Positions 53,219 through 60,200 of a DNA stretch of 64,000 bases are shown piece after piece (the first letter of the stretch is position 1; the number at the start of each line of letters is the position of its first letter). A program made the position numbers and the translations under genes. A model generated the notes under the pieces. It did not search any database. It was not told where the DNA came from and worked only from the letters and a program-made list of their open reading frames with translations. The stretch comes from Flavobacterium ajazii. Lineage in GTDB: Bacteria > Bacteroidota > Bacteroidia > Flavobacteriales > Flavobacteriaceae. The stretch spans positions 372,001 to 436,000 of the forward strand of contig NZ_JAAEHL010000001.1 of the NCBI RefSeq assembly GCF_010614725.1, written 5' to 3'.

Positions 53219-54671
53219 TTATTCTTTAACTGTAACAATAACTCTTTGATATCTCGTCAAACGAGGAAAACCATGATCAGTGACTGCCAGAATGATATGC
53301 ATAGTTCCGAGACCTGGTTCCATAACCCGCTTAGCAGGAACTACAAAAGAAGCTTCCTGCTGATCAAAGTTTTGTATTTCAATCGGCTGCCCGCTTTTTC
53401 CGCTTGAAACCGGAAAAGTTCCTGCTTCGGAGTAAAAGAACCAATTGTATGAAAGCGCATCTCCATCAGGATCATTGGAGCCTTTGGCACTTAATTTAAT
53501 CAAATCCCCTTTTTTAGCATTGATATAGCTATCATGTTCTAATTTTACAACAGGCGGATGGTTGGCCTTTTTATAATCTTTAATGGTCCAGTCCATTCTT
53601 GCTGCAAAATCATTCTGAAAAGCCTCTCTCCATCTCCATATTGTTTCATGGTTTCCTTCATGCCAGCGACCATCATTACCTAATACTTCATCTTCTGCAT
53701 CGGTCCATATCGGACGACTTTCGGCTAGCAGATGCCATTTTTGTTTTCTTGGCGTGTATAATTCATAACGGCCTCCCCAGCCTCCATATTCGGGATGCTC
53801 AGAAACATTTAATCCGTTGTTAATTAATGACAAAAATGACGGAGTATCACCTTCCATCAAAAATTCCCAAAAGGGATATTGGGCTCCCAGAGGGCCTTTA
53901 GATCTTATATTTTTACCCAGCCATTCGTTCGAAACAATAGTAAAATCGGCACCATCACATCGGGCGTGAAAAAAATCACCACTAATACCACTCCAGGTAG
54001 CATGATGATAAGCACCACCCTGATTAAATCCAGGACTTACTATATAAAACAAATTTGAAAATTCCTTACGAATCCACGGTCCGCTATCGTCCTGATCACA
54101 CCCTCAATTTTGATACGAACTTTTCTAATTCTTTTGCAGAACGTGTCTGTTTTACTTTCCATAATGCCTGCCCTAATACATTTGGCCCTCCCCAAACCGG
54201 AACCCATAATGGCCTCGCATCATTTTTATCAACAGACTGAATTAATAATTCTGAAGCAGGCGAATCATGTCCTTTTCCGATAGCCTGCATTCCATATTTT
54301 GGTAATCCTTCTGTAATAACAGACTTCAAATAATCACCGGTTGGAAAACCTGTTTCATGTTTTTCCAGATTATCTCTTACTTTGGTATAAGCTTCAACAA
54401 TTTCCTCCACACGGTATTTTGCAACCTTTTCTTTTTGATGAATCGAAGTCGTTGCTGTAATTCCTTCAATATCATAATTATTGGCATACACTAAAAACCG
54501 AACCAGTGACATCGCATCATCAGGCTCATTTTCTATATCAGTGAGTACAAAAACTCTTGGTTTGATCTGAGCAGTGACAAAAGTTGTAACTAAAAACAGT
54601 CCAATGAATATTTTAAACGGAGAAAAATAGCTTAAATTAATCTTCTGTTTTGTTCTTTTCGAATGATCCAT
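53219..54671 (-). pseudogene. DUF1593 gene broken by a frameshift (about 11-nt deletion)
   Basis: Two reading frames make up one DUF1593 protein of about 480 aa. The 5' part (54671 to 54096) has signal peptide and [31 protein letters not shown] and ends ...EKFVSKLRV then TGA. The rest, in another frame, restarts at GATCAGGACGATAGCGGACC (54099-54080; D-Q-D-D-S-G-P) and runs to the stop at 53219. In the intact paralog (15923-17326) the join reads [16 protein letters not shown]; here the codons for YTIS are reduced to one T. The C-terminal domain ([15 protein letters not shown]) is otherwise unspoiled, so the loss is recent. No slippery heptamer is present, so programmed frameshifting is unlikely. 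Confidence 0.85.
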
Positions 54672-54839: not shown

Positions 54840-55970
54840 ATGAGAACAAATCCGGATGTACTGATAATTGGAGGTGGTCTTGCCGGTCTGGCAAGTGCTT
54901 TGCATTTATCTAAAAAAGGACTCAGTGTTATTGTGATTGAAAAAGCGGCTTATCCCAGGCATAAAGTCTGCGGGGAATATATTTCTAATGAAATTTTACC
55001 TTACCTGCAATGGCTTGGCGTAAATGTTTCTGAACTTCAGCCTACTCACATTTCAAATTTTGAATTTTCAGCTCAGAATGGTAGAATCGCTCATACAAAA
55101 CTTCCATTAGGTGGTTTCGGGGTCAGTCGTTTTGCACTGGATAATTTTTTATATGAAAAGGCAGTACAAAACGACTGTACTGTAATTACAGATTCTGTAA
55201 TTGGGGTTTCTTTTGAAAACAATGCATTTACAGTAACAACTTCACAGCAGATTTTCATATCCAAAATTGTGCTGGGTGCTTATGGAAAAAGGTCAAATAT
55301 TGATCAGTTACTCGCACGGGATTTTATTGCTAAAAAATCCCCATGGCTAGCTGTAAAAGGGCATTACAACGGCGAATTTGATAATAGCCTTGTTGCGTTG
55401 CATAATTTTCAGGGAGGTTACTGCGGTGTTTCTGTTGTGGAAAAAAACATTATAAACATCTGCTATCTGGCCGATTACGAAACTTTTAAGAAATACAAAA
55501 ACATAGACGATTATCAAAAAGAAGTACTTTATAAAAACCAAAATCTAAAAGCTGTTTTTGAAAACTCTACTCCTATTTTTGAAAAACCGCTTACCATCAG
55601 CCAGATTTCATTTGATAAAAAAAATCCTGTAGAAAATCATGTTTTAATGATTGGAGACACCGCCGGACTCATACATCCTATGTGTGGCAACGGAATGGCG
55701 ATGGCAATTCACAGTGCCAAAATCGCTTCAGAATTAGTGCTGGATTTTTACAGCGGAAAGATAGAATCGCATGCATTATTAGAAAAAAAATATAGAACAG
55801 AATGGAATAAGCATTTTAAAAACAGACTGATTATGGGAAGGTTTTTAGCCAAAGCTTTAACTTATAAAACTTTTACATCTATAATGACTTCTATGGCTGC
55901 ATCAATGCCTTTTTTGCTTTCAGCAATAATCAGGCAGACGCACGGAAGTCCTATAAATATCAACGAATGA
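54840..55970 (+). CDS. FAD-dependent oxidoreductase of the type III PKS cluster
   Basis: A 376-aa flavoprotein of the geranylgeranyl-reductase/aromatic-hydroxylase group: dinucleotide motif IIGGGLAGLASALHLSKKGLSVIVIEK (near residues 9-35), YPRHKVCGEYIS, and the second FAD motif MIGDTAGLIHPMCGNGMAMAIHSAKIA (near 275). Start of the cluster; its stop overlaps the methyltransferase gene (ATGA). In Streptomyces srsABC a type III PKS product is methylated and then hydroxylated by a flavoprotein, a useful precedent. Reaction here: ring hydroxylation of the polyketide, or reduction of a chain, is inferred. Confidence 0.85.
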   Translation: MRTNPDVLIIGGGLAGLASALHLSKKGLSVIVIEKAAYPRHKVCGEYISNEILPYLQWLGVNVSELQPTHISNFEFSAQNGRIAHTKLPLGGFGVSRFALDNFLYEKAVQNDCTVITDSVIGVSFENNAFTVTTSQQIFISKIVLGAYGKRSNIDQLLARDFIAKKSPWLAVKGHYNGEFDNSLVALHNFQGGYCGVSVVEKNIINICYLADYETFKKYKNIDDYQKEVLYKNQNLKAVFENSTPIFEKPLTISQISFDKKNPVENHVLMIGDTAGLIHPMCGNGMAMAIHSAKIASELVLDFYSGKIESHALLEKKYRTEWNKHFKNRLIMGRFLAKALTYKTFTSIMTSMAASMPFLLSAIIRQTHGSPININE

Positions 55971-56680
55971 AACTGTGCACCAAATATAGAACAGAAGAAA
56001 CTGAGATAATGGACGATTTTACGCTTGAGGGTGCAGAATTAACTGAAGCATTAGATCAGATAGCCAAAATCAATCAGCTGTTAGGAGGTAATAAATTAAC
56101 GCTTCATGGATTAAAAAAGTTATTGAGAAAAACTGATGCTGTTAAGCCTTTGTTAATAGCAGATATTGGCTGCGGTAATGGGGATATGCTTCGAATGCTG
56201 GCACTATATGGTAAAAAAAAAGGTCTTAATTTTAAATTAATTGGTATAGATGCCAATCCTTTTACAATACGTTATGCAGAAGATCTTTCTAAAGAATTTG
56301 AAAATATAGAGTTTAAATGTATAGATATTTTCAGTCCTGATTTTGACTCCCTTAAATATGATATTGCCTTATGTACCCTTACCCTACACCATTTTTCAAG
56401 TACGCAAATCAAAGATATTTTGAAACATATTTATCATAATACTTCAAAAGGAATTGTGGTAAATGATCTGCATCGAAGCAAAACTGCTTACAGATTGTTT
56501 AAACTGATTTGTGATGTTTTTAATCTGAATGATATGTCACGTAAGGACGGACTGGTTTCTATTTTAAGAGGGTTTAAGAAAAAAGAACTGGAGCATTTCT
56601 CCGAAAAACTAAATTTTAAAAACTATGCCATAAGCTGGAAATGGGCGTTCCGTTACCAGTGGATAATTACAAAAATATGA
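55967..56680 (+). CDS. Class I SAM methyltransferase of the type III PKS cluster
   Basis: A 237-aa methyltransferase with SAM-binding motif I LLIADIGCGNGDMLRML (near residue 65), motif II LIGIDANPFTIRYAEDL, motif post II IEFKCIDIF and YDIALCTLTLHHFSS. It overlaps the flavoprotein gene at its start and the PKS gene at its end (ATGA in both). Probably O- or C-methylates the aromatic product of the PKS. Confidence 0.87.
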   Translation: MKLCTKYRTEETEIMDDFTLEGAELTEALDQIAKINQLLGGNKLTLHGLKKLLRKTDAVKPLLIADIGCGNGDMLRMLALYGKKKGLNFKLIGIDANPFTIRYAEDLSKEFENIEFKCIDIFSPDFDSLKYDIALCTLTLHHFSSTQIKDILKHIYHNTSKGIVVNDLHRSKTAYRLFKLICDVFNLNDMSRKDGLVSILRGFKKKELEHFSEKLNFKNYAISWKWAFRYQWIITKI

Positions 56681-57729
56681 GTGTAAAGATAATCACAGCT
56701 GTAAAACAGCTTCCGCAATATTCACGGGAGACCAAAGATATAATTCCTTTTTTGGATGTCTGGCTCGAAGGTCAGGAAGAGCGTTTTATAAAAAAAGTAA
56801 AAAAAATATTTGAAGGTGCAGCAGTAGATAAACGCTACTCTGTAATGGAACCTTCTGAAGTTTTTACGGCAACTTCATTTGAAGAAAAAAATGATATTTA
56901 CAGCCGTGAAATGATTCTTCTGGGGCATCAGGTGTTGGAAAAAGCACTTGAAAAAGCCAGCTGGGATCCACAGAGCCTGGATTATATTATTACGGTGAGC
57001 TGTACAGGTATTATGATTCCGTCATTAGATGCTTATTTGATTAATAAAATGAAACTGCGTCAGGATATTGTGCGTCTGCCTGTAACAGAAATGGGCTGTG
57101 CCGCAGGAATATCAGGAATTATTTATGCAAAGAATTTCCTGAAATCAAATCCGGAAAAACGTGCTGCTGTAATTGCTGTAGAATCTCCTACTGCTACGTT
57201 TCAGCTGAATGATTTTTCGATGCCTAATATTGTAAGCGCTGCAATTTTTGGGGATGGTGCGGCATGCTGTCTGCTTTCGTCCGATGAAAAAGATACCGGA
57301 CCTGAAATTCTGGATGAAGAAATGTATCATTTCTACGATGCTGAACATATGATGGGATTTAAGCTAACTAATAATGGGCTGAAAATGGTTCTGGATATAG
57401 AAGTACCCGATACCATTGCTGATCATTTCGAAAATATCATACATCCGTTTTTGAAACAGAACAACCTTGATATTAAAGATATTGACCACCTGATATTTCA
57501 TCCCGGCGGAAAAAAAATCGTCAACACTGTTGAAGAACTTTTCTCTGGATTAGGAAAAAATATTGATGATACAAAAGAAGTTCTCAGACAGTACGGAAAT
57601 ATGTCAAGCGCTACTGTGTTATATGTATTAGAACGAATTATGAATCGTAATCCTAAAAAAGGCGAAAAAGGAGTTATGCTGAGCTTTGGTCCCGGATTTT
57701 CGGCACAGCGGGTTTTATTGGAATGGTAA
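56677..57729 (+). CDS. Type III polyketide synthase (chalcone synthase-like)
   Basis: A 350-aa homodimeric type III PKS from the ATG at 56677, which overlaps the methyltransferase TGA; the reading from 56641 adds 12 non-family residues. Catalytic triad: Cys in TEMGCAAGISGIIYAK (near 141), His in LIFHPGGKKIV (near 275), Asn in YGNMSSATVLYVLERI (near 308). It extends an acyl starter with malonyl-CoA and cyclises it, in bacteria typically to alkylresorcinols or alkylpyrones. The dedicated KAS, ACP and dehydratase next to it probably supply or modify the acyl chain. Confidence 0.93.
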   Translation: MSVKIITAVKQLPQYSRETKDIIPFLDVWLEGQEERFIKKVKKIFEGAAVDKRYSVMEPSEVFTATSFEEKNDIYSREMILLGHQVLEKALEKASWDPQSLDYIITVSCTGIMIPSLDAYLINKMKLRQDIVRLPVTEMGCAAGISGIIYAKNFLKSNPEKRAAVIAVESPTATFQLNDFSMPNIVSAAIFGDGAACCLLSSDEKDTGPEILDEEMYHFYDAEHMMGFKLTNNGLKMVLDIEVPDTIADHFENIIHPFLKQNNLDIKDIDHLIFHPGGKKIVNTVEELFSGLGKNIDDTKEVLRQYGNMSSATVLYVLERIMNRNPKKGEKGVMLSFGPGFSAQRVLLEW

Positions 57730-57741
57730 TATTTAGAAATT

Positions 57742-58179
57742 ATGGAATTAACAGCTATTATAAAAAAACTTCCTTATAGTGAACCTTTTTTATTTGCGGA
57801 TGAACTTCTGCATGCAGACGAAAATGGTGTAACGGGAACTTTTACATTTAAAAAAGAACTTGATTTTTATAAAGGCCATTTTAAGGATAATCCTGTGACG
57901 CCGGGGGTTATTTTAACTGAAACGATGGCACAGATCGGCCTGGTTTGCCTCGGAATATATTTATTAGGCGGAGATCTTAAAGGAGCTACTGTAATTGCGT
58001 TTACTTCTGCCGATATGGAATTTTTAAAGCCTGTATATCCCGGTGAAAAAGTAACCGTGAGTTCGCAGAAAATTTTCTTTCGCTTTGGCAAACTAAAATG
58101 CAGTGCTGTAATGAAAAATGAAACAGGACAGGAAGTCTGCCGTGGTATTCTGGCCGGAATGATAACTCAGAAATTATGA
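57742..58179 (+). CDS. FabZ-like 3-hydroxyacyl-ACP dehydratase (hotdog fold)
   Basis: A 145-aa hotdog-fold protein. FYKGHFKDNPVTPGVILTETMAQIG holds the catalytic His of GHF and the Glu of ETMAQ found in FabZ/FabA. It is 12 nt after the PKS gene and overlaps the KAS gene (ATGA). Likely dehydrates the 3-hydroxyacyl-ACP formed during chain elongation by the cluster KAS. No ketoreductase is encoded in the cluster, so a cellular FabG is presumably shared. Confidence 0.87.
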   Translation: MELTAIIKKLPYSEPFLFADELLHADENGVTGTFTFKKELDFYKGHFKDNPVTPGVILTETMAQIGLVCLGIYLLGGDLKGATVIAFTSADMEFLKPVYPGEKVTVSSQKIFFRFGKLKCSAVMKNETGQEVCRGILAGMITQKL

Positions 58180-59444
58180 AAAAACGAATTGTAATAACAG
58201 GTCTTGGCGTAGCCGCACCAAGCGGTGTTGGAATTCCGGAATTTACGCAAGCGCTTAAAAATAGTGTCTCAGGCATTCGTCATAACTTGCAGCTTGAAGA
58301 ATTACAATTTTCATGTCAGATTAGCGGGGAGCCTGAAATATCAGAAGAATTAAAATCGAAATATTTTACCGAGCTTGAACTTCGGGGATTTAACAGCAGT
58401 GGAATTTTATACGGTGTGATTGCAGGTATGGAAGCCTGGACCAATGCCGGACTACCAATAAATGAAAGTCCTGATTGGGACAGCGGTGCTATTTTTGGAT
58501 CGGGTACTTCCGGTATTGATAAATTTCGCGAAAGCATTTACAAAATTGATGATTTACAAACCCGCAGACTAGGCAGTACCGTTGTAGCACAAACCATGAA
58601 CAGCGGTATAAGTGCTTATCTTGGAGGAAAAATCGGATTAGGAAATCAGGTAACCACAAATTCATCTGCCTGCACAACAGGAACCGAAGCGATCTTAATG
58701 GCTTATGACAGGATACAGTCAGGTCAGGCAAAACGAATTCTTGCCGGAAGCACTTCAGACAGCGGTCCGTATATTTGGGCCGGATTTGATGCGCTTAGAG
58801 TTTGTCCTTCAAAATATAACGAAAATCCAAAAGAAGGTTCAAGACCTATGAGTGCTTCAGCTGCAGGATTTGTTCCCGGAAGCGGTGCCGGTGCATTGGT
58901 TGTTGAAGATTTAGAAAGCGCTCTGGAACGCGGAGCGGTAATTTATGCCGAGGTACTAGGCGGAAATATCAATTCAGGCGGACAGCGAGATGGCGGTAGT
59001 ATGACAGCACCAAACAGTACTGCAGTACAGCAATGCATCAAAAATGCAATTACTAATTCAGGTATACATCCAAATGAAATTGATGCCATAAACGGTCATC
59101 TTACGGCAACAACAAAAGACAGTCTGGAAATTGAAAACTGGACAAAAGCACTGCAGCGAAGCGGTACTGATTTCCCTTATATCAATTCTTTAAAAAGTCT
59201 TACCGGACATTGTTTAAGCGCCTCAGGGAGTATTGAAAGTGTGGCATCGGTCTTACAGCTTCATGAGAATTTCTTATTTGGAAACATAAACTGTGAAGAC
59301 CTTCATCCTGAAATTGCTGCGCTAATAGATCATTCTAAAGTCCCATTAAAAACCATTAATACTAATCTTAATATAATTGCTAAAGCCAGTTTTGGTTTTG
59401 GTGATGTAAACGCATGTGTAATATTTAAAAAATTTGAAAAATAA
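58176..59444 (+). CDS. Beta-ketoacyl-ACP synthase (KAS, FabF-like)
   Basis: A 422-aa condensing enzyme with intact Cys-His-His set: Cys in TTNSSACTTGTEAI (near 165), His in INGHLTATTKDSLEIENW (near 307), His in SLTGHCLSASGSIESVAS (near 344). Also VVITGLGVAAPSG-like start (RIVITGLGVAAPSGVGIPEF) and RPMSASAAGFVPGSGAGALVVE. It probably extends acyl-ACP on the dedicated ACP encoded next. Length and motifs match FabF; it is not a decarboxylating KSQ or chain-length factor, because Cys is present. Confidence 0.92.
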   Translation: MKKRIVITGLGVAAPSGVGIPEFTQALKNSVSGIRHNLQLEELQFSCQISGEPEISEELKSKYFTELELRGFNSSGILYGVIAGMEAWTNAGLPINESPDWDSGAIFGSGTSGIDKFRESIYKIDDLQTRRLGSTVVAQTMNSGISAYLGGKIGLGNQVTTNSSACTTGTEAILMAYDRIQSGQAKRILAGSTSDSGPYIWAGFDALRVCPSKYNENPKEGSRPMSASAAGFVPGSGAGALVVEDLESALERGAVIYAEVLGGNINSGGQRDGGSMTAPNSTAVQQCIKNAITNSGIHPNEIDAINGHLTATTKDSLEIENWTKALQRSGTDFPYINSLKSLTGHCLSASGSIESVASVLQLHENFLFGNINCEDLHPEIAALIDHSKVPLKTINTNLNIIAKASFGFGDVNACVIFKKFEK

Positions 59445-59445
59445 A

Positions 59446-59700
59446 ATGGAGAGAAAAGAACTTACCCAAAAACTAAAAAACATTATAAAACCGTATGCTG
59501 CAGATAAAGATGCTTACGAAAACTTAACTGAAGAAACAGATTTTATAAAAGATTTGAAAATCAATTCTGCTAATCTGGTTGACATTGTACTTGATATTGA
59601 GGAACAGTTTGACGTCGTAATTGAAAATACGGATATGGAGCGTATGCTTGATGTAAAAACTGCTGTAGAAATTATTGAAACCAAACTTGCAGCTAAATGA
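59446..59700 (+). CDS. Acyl carrier protein
   Basis: An 84-aa acidic ACP from the ATG at 59446 (MERKELTQKLKNIIKPYAAD), 1 nt after the KAS stop. The phosphopantetheine-site Ser is in KINSANLVDIVLDIEEQFDV (near 41), with Asn in place of the usual Asp just before it (NSA instead of DSL), as in some specialised ACPs. The stop overlaps the PPTase start. A dedicated ACP with its own activating enzyme implies that intermediates are kept apart from primary fatty-acid synthesis. Confidence 0.87.
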   Translation: MERKELTQKLKNIIKPYAADKDAYENLTEETDFIKDLKINSANLVDIVLDIEEQFDVVIENTDMERMLDVKTAVEIIETKLAAK

Positions 59701-60200
59701 TTGGTAACGATGTTATAGATCTTCGGCAGTCTCGAATAGAAAGTAACTGGCAACGTAAAGGATTTATCGAAAAACTTTTTACTGATACAGAAAAGCAACT
59801 TATAAAAGACTACCATAATCCTGAAATAATGGTGTGGCTTTTATGGAGCATGAAAGAAGCAGCATATAAAATCTACAATCGTCAGACTAAAATACGGGAA
59901 TACATTCCTAAAAAACTGTCATGTTCGATAATCAAATTAGTCCCGTATATTCAGGGTTTCGTGATTTGCAATGGAAACAAATATTATACTAAAACTTTAA
60001 TAACGTCTGAAAATATTCACACTGTAGCTGCTTCGACTTCTGAAGACCTTAATAATATAATTGAGATAGAAAGAAAGGGAATCATAAAAACCGAAAACGG
60101 TATTCCGTATCTGTATGTTTCTAATGAAAATACATTTAAAGAGGTTTCAATAAGTAATCACGGGCGTTTTGAACGGGTTATCAGGATAGCAGAAAATTAA
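59697..60200 (+). CDS. 4'-phosphopantetheinyl transferase
   Basis: A 167-aa PPTase that converts the neighbouring apo-ACP to its holo form using CoA. Motifs: N-terminal IGNDVIDL (metal-binding Asp) and the core LLWSMKEAAYKIYN (W-x-x-K-E-A, catalytic Glu and Lys). Start ATG overlaps the ACP stop TGA. Last gene of the cluster; the convergent hydrolase gene follows. Confidence 0.92.
   Translation: MIGNDVIDLRQSRIESNWQRKGFIEKLFTDTEKQLIKDYHNPEIMVWLLWSMKEAAYKIYNRQTKIREYIPKKLSCSIIKLVPYIQGFVICNGNKYYTKTLITSENIHTVAASTSEDLNNIIEIERKGIIKTENGIPYLYVSNENTFKEVSISNHGRFERVIRIAEN

Follow-up and report, generated by a model that had tools for sequence, protein, structure and literature searches.

Gene content and organisation

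Analysis of the window, the whole 64 000-nucleotide stretch of Flavobacterium ajazii DNA, identified a seven-gene operon on the + strand at positions 54840-60200, for which open reading frames and Pfam/NCBIfam searches agreed with the functions given in the initial annotation. The first three genes encode an FAD-dependent oxidoreductase with a flavin monooxygenase-like fold, a putative ring hydroxylase (54840..55970; Pfam FAD_binding_3 2.8e-11); a SAM-dependent methyltransferase (MT; 55967..56680; Methyltransf_25, PRK06202-like by Pfam/NCBIfam), and a type III polyketide synthase (PKS) of 350 amino acids with the residues C141, H275 and N308 (56677..57729; Pfam Chal_sti_synt_C 2.6e-21). These are followed by genes for a FabZ-like 3-hydroxyacyl-ACP dehydratase (DH) with H46 and E60 (57742..58179; Pfam FabA 3.3e-11; FabZ 61 bits, cut-off 113), a FabF-like beta-ketoacyl-ACP synthase (KAS) with C166, H308, K340 and H345 (58176..59444; Pfam 2.4e-26; FabF 268 bits, cut-off 494), a dedicated acyl carrier protein (ACP) with Ser41 in the motif INSANL (59446..59700; Pfam PP-binding 2.2e-4; NCBIfam ACP 42 bits, cut-off 71) and a 4'-phosphopantetheinyl transferase (PPTase) of the ACPS superfamily (59697..60200; Pfam ACPS 1e-10). 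NCBIfam matches were below their curated cut-offs, and every protein matched one or more Pfam models above the cut-off. The most probable start of the PKS is 56677 and not 56641, and comparison with relatives favoured the ATG at 59446 over the TTG at 59434 as the probable start of the ACP.

The initial annotation had described seven same-strand genes with mostly overlapping start and stop codons, and this was confirmed: 4 bp overlaps (ATGA) are found at four of the six junctions (FAD/MT, MT/PKS, DH/KAS and ACP/PPTase), the others being gaps of 12 bases (PKS-DH) and 1 base (KAS-ACP). Among 80 closely related loci, the overlap was retained in 80 for MT/PKS, 74 for ACP/PPTase, 73 for DH/KAS and 21 for FAD/MT. 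No gene for a ketoreductase, acyltransferase (malonyl transferase) or thioesterase is present among the seven, so that other enzymes must supply steps of the pathway.

Conservation of the operon

Conservation was assessed in a set of 95, comprising the window and 94 loci (80 close and 14 more distant Bacteroidota). The complete unit was found in the same order and on one strand in all 80 close loci, and the first six genes in order in 14/14 divergent loci, with the PPTase in 10 of these. Flavobacterium johnsoniae CI04 (L040) also carries the operon. The catalytic residues of PKS, KAS and DH were all kept (95/95), and the ACP, KAS and DH genes, which had been proposed to belong to the operon, were borne out as members in every locus. 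Each of the five window genes flanking the operon was present in just 0 to 4 of 100 loci, indicating that the unit is conserved and not its location. The grouping of the seven genes thus exceeds chance, as it recurs complete while its neighbours do not.

The phosphopantetheine serine of the ACP (S41) was kept in 95/95, flanked by Asn and Ala and not by Asp and Leu. The occurrence of NSA in place of DSL had been singled out from the window; it is indeed present there but is not exceptional, the motif being constant across the ACP family (95/95) and Asn preceding the Ser also in the alignment with the solved ACP 5zws. The cluster likewise has its own activating enzyme, as first noted, yet this is not essential: the PPTase was found in 91 of the 95 loci with no match in the other four, whose genomes each contain one PPTase elsewhere. 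The window genome has two matches to the PPTase family, one of which is the cluster copy. Co-evolution of PPTase and NSA was considered and dropped, as the four operons lacking a PPTase still have NSA.

In 11 of the 95 loci, a gene for a FabL-like reductase is located exactly between the PKS and DH genes; it is absent from the window operon. In the three of these reductases that were scanned, FabL was the best family (148-162 bits) and FabG models scored 96-119 bits, all below cut-off. The sequence Y-[AG]-A-V-S-x-A-K was found in 11/11, fitting Y-x6-K, the enoyl-reductase motif; judged from sequence, the protein could instead be a ketoreductase. Its presence and absence require at least four changes on a 34-row tree. 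A search of the window genome for an orthologue returned just generic SDRs at 22-32% identity, and the FabI model gave no match above its cut-off in this genome. A protein of the genome strongly matches the Enoyl_reductase family (387 bits), and we take it to be FabV.

The PKS and its tailoring enzymes

The Cys-His-Asn triad of type III PKSs was intact in 95/95. Among the PDB matches listed, the closest solved structure was Pks11 of Mycobacterium tuberculosis (E 2.4e-51), with CylI also among the nearest solved relatives; the starters of Pks11 are long-chain acyl groups and the ring formed by CylI is a resorcinol. The AlphaFold2 model of the PKS was poor (pLDDT 60) and was used solely to name fold relatives. 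Identity with DarB (dialkylresorcinol/flexirubin) was rejected at 25.7 of the 550 bits of the NCBIfam cut-off. Position 228, placed by alignment with Gly256 of chalcone synthase (CHS) and not claimed as equivalent to the ArsB Trp281/ArsC Gly284 position, is Phe in 95/95 of the clade and Trp in the PKSs of 11/11 loci from other phyla (below) and in 6/6 other Bacteroidota PKSs, so that cyclisation could differ. Structure 3VS8, sought for the ArsB/ArsC mapping, was not among the best 60 matches listed in the PDB searches. Three residues ahead of the catalytic His, 69 of 95 have Met and 26 have Leu, a variation that was uninformative.

The best NCBIfam match of the flavoprotein was the GG-red superfamily (112 bits, under its cut-off). 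Its AlphaFold2 model (pLDDT 84.5) matched the folds of the halogenases ChlB4 and PltA, 3-hydroxybenzoate 6-hydroxylase, PqsL, UbiI and PHBH in the PDB; the model thus resembles phenol hydroxylases among others, while the top matches by E-value are halogenases, which counts against its reading as a ring hydroxylase. The W-x-W motif is absent from the flavoprotein sequence, and a search with this sequence against the PDB gave nothing at E 1e-8.

The resemblance to srsABC suggested in the initial annotation was supported, SrsA-C being known by description: in 11/11 loci of other phyla, the proteins encoded beside the PKS were homologous to the window MT (phmmer E 5e-29 to 4e-19 in a 37-protein set) and to its flavoprotein (E 1.5e-34 to 1.6e-5, weakest in Deinococcus). 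The PKS-MT-FAD trio was present in all 13 plasmid loci opened, out of 32 plasmid records matched by the MT. The PKS matched 222 plasmid records, of which 11 were opened; three contained the trio (L157, L161, L162), two a PKS with an isoprenylcysteine methyltransferase-like (ICMT) gene (L152, L153), three different neighbours (L154, L155, L158) and three were without gene annotation (L156, L159, L160). The PKS alone is therefore no predictor of the trio, whereas the MT is, in the loci opened. By sequence homology, PKS, MT and flavoprotein form a cross-phylum trio, to which the fatty-acid part is an addition.

Comparison with known systems

As in the window, PKS, MT and flavoprotein are found in one unit in srsABC, pkqABC, hidABC (hierridin) and the planctomycete trio, although the window order FAD-MT-PKS is unlike that of the known trios (SrsA-C, PkqA-C and HidA-C were likened by description). 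As far as their descriptions go, these loci are without a KAS, DH, ACP and PPTase of their own, whereas the window has all four. A match to a characterised pathway, which had been named as grounds against the initial interpretation, was thus approached for the three-gene head only and not for the whole operon. Planctomycete trio PKSs are described as making alkylresorcinols, and methylated alkylresorcinols when combined with tailoring genes from Gimesia maris (PMC10896814); pkq-type operons are described as yielding quinones (PMC9927152).

Sphingomonad plasmids (Sphingobium yanoikuyae L157, Novosphingobium L162 and L166) resemble the window in having the trio with an ACP and a KAS beside the PKS. 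Their KAS is just ~25% identical to that of the window, which suggests separate recruitment, their ACP is without NSA (3/3) and no match to the window DH or PPTase was found at these loci. We know of no product for these clusters.

ArsB/C and GCS are described as type III PKSs that use acyl-ACP (PMC6274091), which provides precedents for handover from ACP to PKS. According to the same source, the type III PKSs of Azotobacter arsABCD receive their acyl-ACP from a dedicated fatty acid synthase, much as proposed here for the window; that synthase is type I, whereas the window encodes discrete type II-like proteins (KAS, DH and ACP) and no type I genes, and an Ars-type assignment was rejected. The cylindrocyclophane pathway, as described, likewise starts its chain on a free ACP and forms a resorcinol with the type III PKS CylI (PMC8086630), but extends the chain by type I PKS modules and differs in tailoring.

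Other Bacteroidota encode a type III PKS (about 32-36% identical to that of the window) next to an ICMT-like gene instead of MT and FAD (6/6 opened); the other operon genes were not found at these six loci. Pfam ICMT was matched in the two scanned, and the other four are 34-56% identical to the protein of one of the loci (L127). A PKS with an ICMT methyltransferase is the layout of bacterial alkylpyrone clusters (bpsAB), and we take these pairs to be BpsAB-like. Such an assignment was rejected for the window, where a Methyltransf_25 protein adjoins the PKS and ICMT belongs to the other clade.

Proposed pathway and alternatives

With moderate confidence, we predict a phenolic or quinone lipid as the product of the operon, with an acyl starter from an ACP-bound mini-fatty acid synthase and a PKS-derived head that is methylated and oxidised. 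The prediction draws on gene content, co-conservation, cross-phylum homology of the trio, intact catalytic residues and the FabL-like gene of relatives; from these we infer every reaction, how long the chain is, which ring is formed and that the ACP hands over to the PKS. Malonyl-ACP, ketoreductase and, in the window's clade, enoyl reductase would be supplied by housekeeping enzymes, and the dedicated ACP would be activated by the cluster or a housekeeping PPTase. The cluster KAS and DH would build or finish the acyl chain on this ACP, from which it would be handed to Cys141 of the PKS. The PKS would then add malonyl-CoA units and cyclise the ring, most likely to an alkylresorcinol, which the MT would O-methylate and the flavoprotein hydroxylate, giving a methoxy-hydroquinone or quinone. 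The earlier proposal that the starter is built inside the cluster holds in part: the FabL-like reductase of relatives raises the likelihood that a chain is built on the ACP, but steps need enzymes from outside. Counting against the predicted pathway are the missing ketoreductase, malonyl transferase and thioesterase, the pyrone products of Pks11, F228, the halogenase fold matches and the possible ketoreductase identity of the relatives' enzyme.

It is rather unlikely that KAS, DH and ACP have no part in making the starter, with ACP and KAS just shuttling or transferring an ordinary fatty acyl chain, or with the fatty-acid genes forming a separate co-transcribed pathway. The enzymes absent from the operon, the repeated changes in the reductase on the tree and the sphingomonad loci, with only ACP and KAS beside the trio, would fit this, yet the conserved catalytic residues of KAS and DH, the exact position of the reductase when present and the overlapping genes argue against it.

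A ring that is an alkylpyrone and not a resorcinol, decorated by flavoprotein and MT, also seems doubtful. It is favoured by Pks11, described as making alkylpyrones (PMC6274091), and by Phe instead of the Trp of the trio enzymes at the CHS Gly256 position; however, Phe remains aromatic, the PKSs of the PKS-ICMT pairs of Bacteroidota fall in a clade of their own and lack the other operon genes (6/6 opened), and the phenol-hydroxylase-like flavoprotein suits a phenol substrate. Formation of a small phenol from malonyl-CoA only, with the fatty-acid genes irrelevant to the starter, is very improbable, as DpgA (3,5-dihydroxyphenylacetyl-CoA synthase), although the top NCBIfam model of the PKS, reached 175 of the 425 bits of its cut-off (NF042429) and was rejected as its identity, no other dpg-type gene is among the seven and the MT and flavoprotein have their homologues in the lipid trio.

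No described product for the seven-gene combination was found in searches of the open-access PMC literature. Under the predicted pathway, the operon resembles the bacterial gene sets known for making quinones or membrane lipids with a ring as head, expanded by a small set of fatty-acid-building enzymes of its own. It offers a clear and testable example of chain-building enzymes coupled to a type III PKS, in which natural variants (with or without reductase, with or without PPTase) predict differing tails. More speculatively, and on balance improbably when all parts are taken together, a type II mini-fatty acid synthase on its own ACP might feed the PKS directly and so make the tail independent of the membrane fatty acids, the tail might be saturated in genera that have the enoyl reductase and 2-unsaturated in those that lost it, the product might be an alternative quinone or a phenolic membrane lipid not described before in Bacteroidota, and sphingomonads might have reached the same design independently. 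Should the product be a quinone, an electron carrier other than menaquinone would be added in a genus that is very common in soil and water. Among the predicted gene clusters of Flavobacteriaceae, ~10.7% are given as type III PKS clusters (PMC10734526).

Operon structure and conservation

The seven same-strand genes of the initial annotation at 54840-60200 (+), encoding an FAD oxidoreductase, methyltransferase, type III polyketide synthase (PKS), FabZ-like dehydratase, FabF-like ketoacyl synthase (KAS), acyl carrier protein (ACP) and phosphopantetheinyl transferase (PPTase), were borne out by open reading frames and family assignments, and the overlapping start and stop codons it had described were found as 4-bp ATGA at the FAD/methyltransferase, methyltransferase/PKS, dehydratase/KAS and ACP/PPTase junctions. 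The PKS-dehydratase and KAS-ACP spacings in the window are 12 bases and 1 base, respectively. The PKS start appears best placed at 56677, because the ATG there overlaps the methyltransferase gene by 4 bp in 80/80 loci.

The 5.75-Mb genome carrying the window had Flavobacterium as its closest relatives, judged by the operon. In 80/80 close loci (the best 80 of 539 relatives), from Flavobacterium and a few other Flavobacteriaceae, the complete seven-gene set was collinear with that of the window and lay on one strand. In a phylum-wide sample, a type III PKS was detected at E <= 1e-20 in 153 of 345 genomes. A PKS of >= 67% identity was found in only 31 of the 345, the window genome counted, the next best PKS being 36% identical. 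Matches were listed for 17/23 sampled genomes of the window's genus and 11/15 from other genera in its family. The 14 least similar of these 31 formed a divergent set, and the order FAD-methyltransferase-PKS-dehydratase-KAS-ACP on one strand was kept in 14/14. Three of the 14 (loci L113, L114 and L115, in genomes G249, G080 and G138, respectively) belong to the class but not to the window's family, and their PKS identities of 73-78% matched or exceeded those in some same-family genera (67-75%), which suggests horizontal transfer of the operon. Five window genes flanking the operon seldom recurred among 100 loci with flanks of varying length (hydrolase 2, histidine kinase 4, other three 0). An Sde182-type nucleoside-hydrolase-like gene at 53219-54671 (-) consists of two ORFs in different frames, matching the PF07632 profile at 1-154 and 174-268; it is frameshifted in the assembly used.

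Catalytic residues were kept in all 95 sequences (94 loci and the window) for the PKS (C141, H275, N308), dehydratase (H46, E60) and KAS (C166, H308, K340, H345), as was the Asn-Ser-Ala (NSA) sequence at the ACP active site (N40, S41, A42). A PPTase was detected in 91/95 operons, with D5, E54 and K58 in 91/91 and D8 in 89/91. The four PPTase-less loci (L123-L126) all retain NSA and their genomes contain one PPTase match each, on a different contig; the operon PPTase is therefore a usual yet dispensable partner. The window genome has two PF01648 (PPTase family) matches only: the operon gene and a second, whose open frame spans 218 aa.

An additional reductase gene

A short-chain dehydrogenase/reductase (SDR) of ~265 aa is encoded between PKS and dehydratase in 11/95 loci, comprising 1/80 close loci (L072) and 10/14 divergent loci, and is absent from the window. 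Nine copies compared were 50-97% identical, and the catalytic motif Y-x6-K was present in 11/11. The top NCBIfam model was the enoyl-ACP reductase FabL (3/3 scanned, under cut-off), with FabG models scoring lower; an enoyl reductase is tentatively preferred, although the gene may instead encode a ketoreductase. Presence and absence of the gene on a PKS tree (34 rows) required at least four changes, and we infer a probable ancestral eight-gene unit from which it was lost repeatedly. SDR-free gaps measured 818 bases in L116 (dehydratase-KAS) and 560 bases in L121 (PKS-dehydratase). The window genome contains SDRs of the generic kind only (best by E-value, 28% identical) and a strong Enoyl_reductase family match (387 bits), presumably FabV, and these could stand in for the absent SDR. 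The PKS-dehydratase gap exceeded 60 bases in 16 operons, about 13 of which (including L034, L043, L046 and L051) shared, by eye, a recurring sequence (GCGGATTTTAC..., ...AAATCCGTTTTATCCGCG).

Related operons in other phyla

The window methyltransferase query matched 32 plasmid records, of which 13 were opened, three of them first found with the PKS query; in 13/13, genes for both a flavoprotein and a type III PKS lay within a few kilobases of the methyltransferase gene. Hosts of these trios were Alpha- and Gammaproteobacteria, Deinococcus and one planctomycete (Paludisphaera), and the flavoprotein of the Microvirga trio (L168) was annotated short. The window PKS, methyltransferase and FAD protein matched their trio counterparts with E-values of 1e-42 to 1.6e-5 (11 loci, small sequence set). 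The Paludisphaera order, methyltransferase-FAD-PKS, also occurs in Gimesia maris and Rhodopirellula baltica (PMC10896814). That study describes alkylresorcinols made by the G. maris, R. baltica and Stieleria maiorica PKSs, methylated alkylresorcinols when the G. maris tailoring genes were included, and no product from two planctomycete PKSs lying outside such operons. The pkq operon yields polyketide quinones serving as alternate electron carriers (PMC9927152). The operon is a common extension of a known operon type, undescribed as far as our searches of the open-access PMC literature show; it is a good target for experiment and not a new category of system.

ACP and KAS genes also adjoin the trio on sphingomonad plasmids (L157, L162 and L166), a parallel design in another phylum. 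These KASs were 65-67% identical among themselves but ~25% identical to the window KAS, which was closer to ordinary FabF proteins (33-34%), and 3/3 sphingomonad ACPs were without NSA. On these grounds, ACP and KAS are read as having joined the trio twice, in what would be two separate recruitments.

Assignment of the window PKS to DpgA or DarB was rejected, as its scores fell short of the NCBIfam cut-offs. Among the eleven top-ranked distant PKSs from the phylum-wide Bacteroidota sample, six (L127-L132) adjoin a small ICMT-like protein (34-56% identity across all six; Pfam ICMT in both scanned). The six loci hold none of the other operon genes, and this type was rejected for the window operon.

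Proposed pathway

In these families, KAS extends acyl-ACP and FabZ dehydrates, type III PKSs condense malonyl-CoA and then cyclise, flavin monooxygenases hydroxylate phenols and SAM enzymes methylate. KAS elongation and FabZ-type dehydration would occur on the cluster ACP, followed by malonyl-CoA condensation and cyclisation by the PKS, and then by flavoprotein hydroxylation and SAM-dependent methylation of the product. Acyl-ACP starters have precedent in ArsB/ArsC and GCS (PMC6274091) and in CylI (PMC8086630). The nearest PDB entries to the window PKS by sequence were Pks11, then CylI, and likewise by fold, from a poor model. PKS residue 228 aligned to chalcone synthase Gly256 (G in chalcone synthase, F in 1i8b, a structure named G256F mutant) and was F in 95/95, in contrast to W in all 11 trio enzymes compared and in 6/6 others, a difference that may bear on the type of ring formed.

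The predicted flavoprotein model was good (pLDDT 84.5, pTM 0.87), and its structural neighbours were the halogenases ChlB4/PltA, 3-hydroxybenzoate 6-hydroxylase, PqsL, UbiI and PHBH. W-x-W, part of the halogenase motif, was absent from the window flavoprotein sequence, so a hydroxylase is preferred, a halogenase being the less likely alternative. Elsewhere in the genome, four ketosynthase matches within 14 kb (G000:C30:324111-338123) perhaps represent a flexirubin or aryl polyene cluster.
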